Below are positions 10,011 to 10,042 of a stretch of DNA of 41,162 bases, piece by piece. This DNA is from Verrucomicrobiota bacterium (GTDB lineage: Bacteria > Verrucomicrobiota > Verrucomicrobiia > Limisphaerales > UBA9464), in NCBI GenBank assembly GCA_947454705.1, contig CANGKZ010000043.1, forward strand, positions 1-41,162, written 5' to 3'. Numbering within the stretch: the first letter of the stretch is position 1; each line of letters begins with the position of its first letter. A model generated the notes under the pieces. The model saw nothing but the letters and a program-made list of their open reading frames with translations. It did not search any database and was not told where the DNA came from. The position numbers were made by a program, and so were the translations under genes.

Positions 10011-10042
10011 TCGGAGATCGGAGATCGGAGATCGGAGATCGG
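10011..10042. repeat. 7-bp tandem array (TCGGAGA, about 4.6 copies)
   Basis: Four perfect copies of TCGGAGA plus a partial fifth start two bases after the TGA stop at 10007-10009. They are followed by an inverted CATCCAGCATC tract (10045-10066), and then by the 69-bp repeat. The TGA is followed by a G, so the array almost abuts the stop codon. The rsmE stop at 3021 is followed by a degenerate version, with TCGGAGATCG at 3031-3040. Confidence 0.8.

Follow-up and report, generated by a model that had tools for sequence, protein, structure and literature searches.

Tandem 7- and 8-bp arrays beside stop codons in a Verrucomicrobiota genome are probably the outer ends of small intergenic islands

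Introduction

Fold-back and MITE elements have inverted ends, and in eukaryotic fold-back elements these ends are built of short tandem repeats. Cyanobacterial STRR heptamers, reportedly described by Mazel in 1990, are said to be short tandemly repeated 7-bp sequences located between genes. The GGGNATC heptamers of Xanthomonas and Nostoc run outward in the gaps that carry them (Rehm 2015, PMC4692102). In the Beggiatoaceae, direct repeats of the heptamer TAACTGA are abundant between genes, and the same heptamer is reported from distant phyla (MacGregor 2015, PMC4679880). REP, BIME and REPIN sequences are high-copy intergenic palindromic units, often arranged as inverted pairs (Di Nocera 2013, PMC3733652; Bertels and Rainey 2011, PMC3116915). 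The former paper places most conv-REPs of two species less than 20 bp from both 3' ends, describes a similar pattern for further genomes rich in REPs, and adds that stop codons are often contributed by REP termini. The same text reports that O. terrae, a verrucomicrobium, is rich in GTAG repeats (PMC3733652).

The window analysed here is a stretch of 41,162 bp from a Verrucomicrobiota bacterium (assembly GCA_947454705.1, contig CANGKZ010000043.1, positions 1-41,162). Its arrays resemble intergenic heptameric repeats of the STRR or Rehm type in having 7-bp tandem units, many intergenic copies and an outward direction, with 8-bp families in addition. In contrast to the Xanthomonas and Nostoc heptamers, several word families occur in a set order within one genome, with paired inverted ends and often hairpin cores, and the word TTGGACT lacks a run of three G. 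Whereas the majority of TAACTGA arrays are reported just upstream of start codons, the islands described here abut stop codons in convergent gaps. The titles and abstract openings of open-licence papers yielded no paper on islands that end in arrays. Through the analysis, the suspected influence of stop codons becomes a testable proposition on how repeat islands fill 3' gaps. It also links two literatures, on heptamer repeats and on REP-type elements, which both report like placement. Predictions follow on the origin of the arrays, the reason for their outward direction and assembly breaks in such genomes.

Results

Tandem arrays in the window

All five arrays that a sequence-only reading had placed at stop codons were found there, with some changes of detail. 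The TTGGACT x9 array at the gltX stop (35037-35115) overlaps the TAA at 35114-35116 on the minus strand by 2 bp, and the degenerate tract after rsmE is present, with words from 3029 behind the TGA at 3019-3021. The TCGGAGA x4.6 array does lie just past a stop codon (array 10011-10042 by TRF; TGA ending at 10009), but the gene in question is a 1.47-kb ORF (8540-10009, 489 aa) and not one of 8.6 kb. The GAGTGGGY array, composed of GTGGGCGA/GTGGGTGA units at 41023-41162, is likewise where it was reported, but it overlaps the TGA ending at 41026 rather than beginning 2 bases after it. This stop belongs to an ORF with a Transglut_core2 domain, for which "SirB1-type" was the earlier reader's name. 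The TTGGACT-type array beyond the TPR gene (18405-19793) was confirmed at 18367-18392, at a distance of 12 bp, not 14. Period-7 tracts at 7309-7416 are additional to those listed earlier. The description of the units as unrelated in sequence did not hold, as TCGGAGA, GATGCTG/CATCCAG, GTGGGCGA and TTGGACT all recur in the window and in the genome sample. The features are as follows, where an island is a gap occupied by such words and often by hairpin units.

10011-10042, plus strand: TCGGAGA (GGAGATC) x4.6 array that forms the outer left end of the island and follows the ORF 8540-10009 TGA at a distance of 1 bp
10047-10064, plus strand: GATGCTG x2.6 array, inner word of the island end that TCGGAGA opens (A-word then B-word)
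10010-10298, no strand: whole gap (island) between convergent ORFs 8540-10009 (plus) and 10299-12443 (minus), with GGAGT-headed hairpin units in inverted orientation
10097-10171, plus strand: GGAGT-headed hairpin unit, resembling stretches that are interspersed in the genome of congener G006
10235-10278, minus strand: second GGAGT-headed hairpin unit of island 10010-10298, in the opposite orientation
3022-3295, no strand: gap (island) between convergent rsmE and FAD oxidoreductase ORF 3296-5065
3029-3080, plus strand: left word tract of the rsmE island, GTCGGAGATCGAAGATGGCAGATCGG then GATGCGG x2.9
3102-3172, minus strand: GGAGT-headed hairpin unit within the rsmE island, with matches in G006
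3221-3285, minus strand: right word tract of the rsmE island, in which CATCCAG words are followed by CCCATCT words, the reverse forms of GATGCTG and GGAGATG; it ends 10 bp away from the ORF 3296-5065 stop
18212-18293, plus strand: GGAGT-headed hairpin unit in gap 18191-18404
18367-18392, minus strand: AAGTCCA-type array, located 12 bp downstream of the TPR gene 18405-19793 (minus)
35014-35036, plus strand: short AAGTCC-type words in forward orientation, at the left edge of the gltX gap
35037-35115, minus strand: AAGTCCA array (TTGGACT on the plus strand), filling most of the convergent gltX gap
41023-41162, plus strand: GTGGGYGA x17.5 array on the TGA of the Transglut_core2 ORF, reaching the window end
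7309-7416, no strand: period-7 tracts AAAGGCA, AGCATCC and CGATCTG in tandem gap 7244-7491

A search of the window against Rfam at gathering thresholds gave only the tRNA. The gene convergent with gltX, at 31645-35013, is a 1122-aa ORF of RCC1 and immunoglobulin-type repeats. The window end at 41162, which the GTGGGCGA array reaches, is probably a contig end caused by an assembly break. The window maps to C43:1-41162 of its genome, in which contigs C39 and C44 measure 45,884 and 39,533 bases. Contig boundaries inside arrays of about 15-20 units were also seen at the starts of C17, C29 and C33 and at the end of C6, besides the end of C43, the window contig. The arrays therefore probably break the assembly, and their true lengths may differ from those assembled.

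Arrays in the genome sample

The genome of the window (G000; 5.45 Mb, 95.71% complete) was sampled over 1,605,988 bp (29%, window included), with some contigs chosen by size alone and several others because of TTGGACT hits. Genes in the sample (1161) were called with a Markov model that had been trained on these same sequences, not with a standard annotator. TRF found 88 arrays with a period of 7 or 8 and a score of at least 40, of which 76 occupy gaps whose two flanks are both present (41 convergent, 25 tandem and 10 divergent). A single array is inside a gene, and 11 sit at the edges of contigs or stretches. The concatenated gaps (214,952 bp) contained 71 such arrays, while three dinucleotide shuffles gave 1, 0 and 0. 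Three tandem copies of TTGGACT matched 142 times in G000 (108 forward and 34 reverse, overlaps counted), and the reversed control gave no match.

The sequence-only reading had predicted an excess of arrays at stop codons and named its absence as grounds for refutation, and the prediction was borne out in the G000 sample. Among stop-bounded arrays, 35/66 lay within 15 bp of the stop, against 11.9 ± 2.7 expected from random placement within the same gap, and none of 5000 simulations reached 35. Within 10 bp there were 20/66 against 8.9 expected; many of the stop-proximal arrays lay at 10-15 bp, and 8/66 overlapped the stop codon itself. The size-chosen contigs gave 23/35 within 15 bp against 5.7, and the remaining contigs, mostly picked for TTGGACT, 12/31 against 6.2 (13/5000 simulations). 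The excess persisted when the commonest word family was removed (19/38 vs 8.9), when one array was counted per gap (30/53 vs 10.2) and when the window was left out (31/60 vs 10.1). No enrichment was found at start codons in the same sample (5/35 vs 5.2). By gap type, with one array per gap, 23/30 lay within 15 bp of a stop in convergent gaps against 5.8 expected, and the 7/23 in tandem gaps did not differ significantly from the 4.5 expected (422/5000 simulations). A lag profile, which needs no threshold, gave a small excess: identity at lags 7 and 8 was 0.285-0.302 over the 50 bp directly downstream of stops and 0.264-0.276 over the 50 bp directly before starts. Arrays with a period of 12-30 were also stop-proximal (15/35 vs 7.4), perhaps partly as multiples of 8-mers.

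Arrays with a period of 9-11 showed no proximity to stops (3/45 vs 4.5). They are common in tandem gaps (35/50 intergenic arrays in the sample), and the window has one family of 10-bp words (CACAGATAAA/ATCTGTGTCA) in its gaps, at 2118-2144 and 38286-38312.

Polarity and order of the words

A few word families, GTTGAAGG, AAAGTCC, GATCGGA, GATGGGA, GATGCTG, GTGGGCGA and GGCGCAGA, account for 66/76 gap arrays. Of these classified arrays, 60/66 run 5' to 3' outward from the nearest gene boundary, including 46/50 where a stop is nearest and 14/16 where a start is nearest. A looser scan, with word-tract patterns composed, like those for the hairpins, after the data had been seen, found 169 word tracts in 108/1015 gaps of the sample (55/143 convergent, 43/710 tandem and 10/162 divergent). 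The outward orientation by side held for 80/88 tracts in convergent gaps and was weaker elsewhere (52/66 in tandem and 11/15 in divergent gaps). A single orientation was present in 71 of the 108 tract-bearing gaps, and both were present in 37. In 36 of these 37 the forward words came before the reverse words (22/22 convergent, 13/14 tandem and 1/1 divergent). The outermost words belonged to the same family in 20/37 mixed gaps, against 12.3 ± 1.7 after shuffling, and GGAGATNG words lay upstream of GATGCTG words in 11/11 pairs. The forward-to-reverse order and the outward polarity are what an element with inverted ends would show, and do not suggest something tied to stop codons. A polarity linked to transcription was considered and rejected: words near starts stay outward (14/16), so the polarity does not follow transcription, and the forward-to-reverse order is kept in 13/14 mixed tandem gaps. 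Divergent gaps are few in this comparison, with one mixed gap.

Hairpin units and a 246-bp element

GGAGT-headed hairpin units, found with a loose pattern, occurred at 0.58 per kb in gaps and 0.20 per kb in genes, and coincided with word tracts in 44 gaps against 8.8 expected. In convergent gaps the units were set back from the boundary by about 95 bp (median), deeper than the arrays, suggesting that the arrays form the outer part of islands. Three window islands had predicted folds of -34, -109 and -141 kcal/mol (-140.9 for 10010-10298), and three GTTGAAGG-ended elements had stable predicted folds of -93 to -126 kcal/mol, all these energies being raw values taken without a shuffle control.

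The sample contained 18 full-length GTTGAAGG-ended elements with a median length of 246 bp (228-390) and inverted array ends of the consensus GTTGAAGGGTTGAAAAGTTGAAGCGTTGAAGGGG. Their consensus has two hairpins in inverted orientation, which might correspond to a REPIN doublet, but strict motifs for these hairpins match only 7 and 5 of the 18, suggesting that the core is variable. The 23-mer of the element end (at most 1 mismatch) occurred 182 times in G000, 4 times in G006 and not at all in G002 and G003. Across the order, a search of 116 genomes found it in 5, with G000 among them. From these counts, the element looks like a recent lineage-specific amplification. In 22 convergent gaps where both island ends could be recognised, the sequence outside the island had a median of 42.5 bp, which is near the median of gaps without islands (58-60 bp).

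Orthologous sites in relatives

Ten orthologous comparisons of convergent gaps were made, covering nine tract-bearing gaps of G000. The gap of the rsmE island is 274 bp in G000 and 6 bp in G001. On contig C3, the gap at 34541 measures 354 bp against 9 bp in G006, and that at 5930 measures 248 bp against 24 bp in G006; at this second site the array appears to supply the stop codon in G000. The window gap at 18190 is 214 bp long against 48 bp in G006 and 37 bp in G001. The array at its TPR stop is absent in G006 and present in G001, where the 37-bp gap is nearly all TTGGACT array. Three other comparisons gave 259 vs 97, 279 vs 117 and 265 vs 173 bp, the last in G005, which has other repeats there. 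Two of the ten comparisons were reversed, with the longer gap in the relative (251 vs 1116 and 195 vs 817 bp). In six further comparisons, at sites without a tract in G000, the gap of the relative was much longer in four (251, 292, 774 and 984 bp, the last resting on only 30% protein identity). The junction at C3 34541 (ACCATCAC/TCTCA) showed no obvious target-site duplication; it was the sole readable one, the others being too diverged. Within 110 nt past the stop, the gltX array was absent in six congeners and the Transglut_core2 array in all four congeners that gave a match. The words that G003 bears past its rsmE stop differ from those of G000.

Relatives and other phyla

The stop enrichment carried over to relatives only in part. 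In samples of 120-442 kb, G005 had 5/13 arrays close to stops against 2.5 expected (41/1000 simulations) and G016 had 2/2 against 0.7, but G006 had 0/5 against 0.3, and the sample of G027 contained no intergenic array. A scan of a genome collection found a 35-bp TTGGACT array in 82 stretches, of which 80 loci (L081-L160) were analysed. The record titles name Verrucomicrobia, Planctomycetota, Acidobacteria, Bacteroidetes genera, cyanobacteria, Proteobacteria, Chloroflexi and others, although some MAG titles may be wrong. ORFs at these loci were called by greedy length, and arrays inside called ORFs or lacking both flanks were dropped. The array ran outward in 28/40 usable cases with a five-unit rule and in 31/43 with a three-unit rule. 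Proximity to stops was not significant in this cross-phylum set (8/33 vs 5.2; 542/5000 simulations).

Two arrays of this set (L089:2605-2653 and L131:4148-4206) lie close to the start of one orthologous gene, at 11 and 8 bp; the ortholog of this gene in G000, at C2:82096, has no array there. The TTGGACT arrays at G000:C34:24782-24810 and L130:968-1009 stand beside the same gene at about 76% DNA identity. Since they share an array site at this identity, some arrays may persist for a long time.

Discussion

The arrays are probably the polar outer ends of small REP/MITE-like intergenic islands that were inserted or grew in short convergent gaps. Each island would consist of outward-directed purine-rich words of 7-8 bp, a core that often contains GGAGT-headed hairpins, and like words on the other strand. 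Such islands would have entered, presumably by transposition, or grown in, convergent gaps as short as the 6-48 bp found at four orthologous congener gaps, and placement in such short gaps would leave the island ends within about 15 bp of the stops, sometimes overlapping them. Where promoters are carried, in divergent gaps and on the start side of tandem ones, islands are rare or farther off, as if selection purged insertions there. At least one class, the GTTGAAGG-ended one of about 246 bp, would have been copied as a unit in the G000 lineage, and the long pure arrays (TTGGACT x9 to x20) may be local expansions of island words by slippage. Insertion into the tract-free convergent gaps, each taken equally, predicts a flank of at most 15 bp in 58% of cases, or in 18% when gaps are weighted by length, and 26/30 were observed. 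The insertion model thus accounts for much, not all, of the closeness of arrays to stops, and leaves over some bias towards stops or towards very short gaps.

The islands share the convergent, 3'-proximal placement of REPs. They differ in their outer ends, which are 7-8-bp tandem arrays, and in the hairpin head, which is GGAGT and not GTAG or CGTC as judged from the consensus by eye rather than by a REP search. The string GGAG is absent from the main text, figures aside, of the REP survey (PMC3733652). A REP type driven by a RAYT was rejected, because the only Y1 transposase match in G000 is IS200-like (77.5 bits, cut-off 55) and scores 24.4 with the RAYT model (cut-off 80). None of the searched words and hairpins was found in the 3.3 kb around this transposase gene. 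As in MITEs, terminal inverted repeats are present, in the form of the inverted array ends of the 18 elements, and the inverted ends also recall fold-back elements, with no obvious target duplication at the one readable junction. With REP placement matched but neither the REP tag nor a RAYT found, we regard the islands as REP/MITE-like with tandem-array ends, and not as seeded by stops.

The shared process that the earlier reading proposed, in which something tied to translation termination or to the transcript 3' end makes arrays past stop codons, now appears improbable. It would explain why 35/66 arrays lie within 15 bp of a stop, many of them at 10-15 bp, why starts are not enriched, and why most stop-proximal arrays are sense-oriented; the different words at the rsmE stop in G003 and G000 also suit it. 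However, the signal resides in convergent gaps and is not significant in tandem ones, start-side words still point outward, and orthologous gaps are shorter at several sites. Nor was the enrichment independent of gap type and species, since relatives and other phyla showed little of it or none (tandem 7/23 vs 4.5, G006 0/5, cross-phylum 8/33, all small samples). The single mixed divergent gap and the four tract-free gaps that are longer in relatives slightly lower the case for islands and raise that for seeding at stops.

Purging alone is a plausible cause of the placement, if arrays arise by neutral slippage and are tolerated only where they are harmless, between genes and off promoters; only 1/88 arrays lies in a gene, and 41/76 lie in convergent gaps. 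This explanation leaves unpredicted the forward-to-reverse order in 36/37 mixed gaps, the fixed word order (11 to 0), the genome-wide word families of the sample and the copied 246-bp units, and we consider it unlikely. A function at the 3' end, with the islands kept by selection as two-way terminators or stabilisers of mRNA 3' ends, would agree with the preference for convergent gaps and with the stable predicted hairpins. It is quite unlikely, as the compared window sites are mostly not conserved in congeners and word content varies between species.

If the REP/MITE-like reading is taken further, the islands might represent a distinct kind of small mobile element, with inverted ends built of directional tandem arrays in which exchangeable 7-8-bp words follow a fixed order. 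Such an element would insert cleanly between converging stops, offer landing sites to IS3-like elements and have its TTGGACT word in distant phyla; this extension is possible but doubtful. An IS3-like end abuts a TTGGACT array in both exact matches among the scanned sequences (L121:2-1270 and G000:C39:1-205, L057). L121 is a Verrucomicrobia MAG contig (isolate Jr-28jun17-223) with 84% DNA identity to G000 over 1.8 kb and best protein matches at 93-99% identity; its ORFs have HTH_Tnp_1 and rve domains, and "IS3-like" is our own reading of them. A variant IS3-like end, spotted by eye, abuts a CCCATCT array in G000:C31:1-190 (L045). Such arrays may be landing sites for IS, as REPs are for some IS according to an earlier report (PMC1525189).
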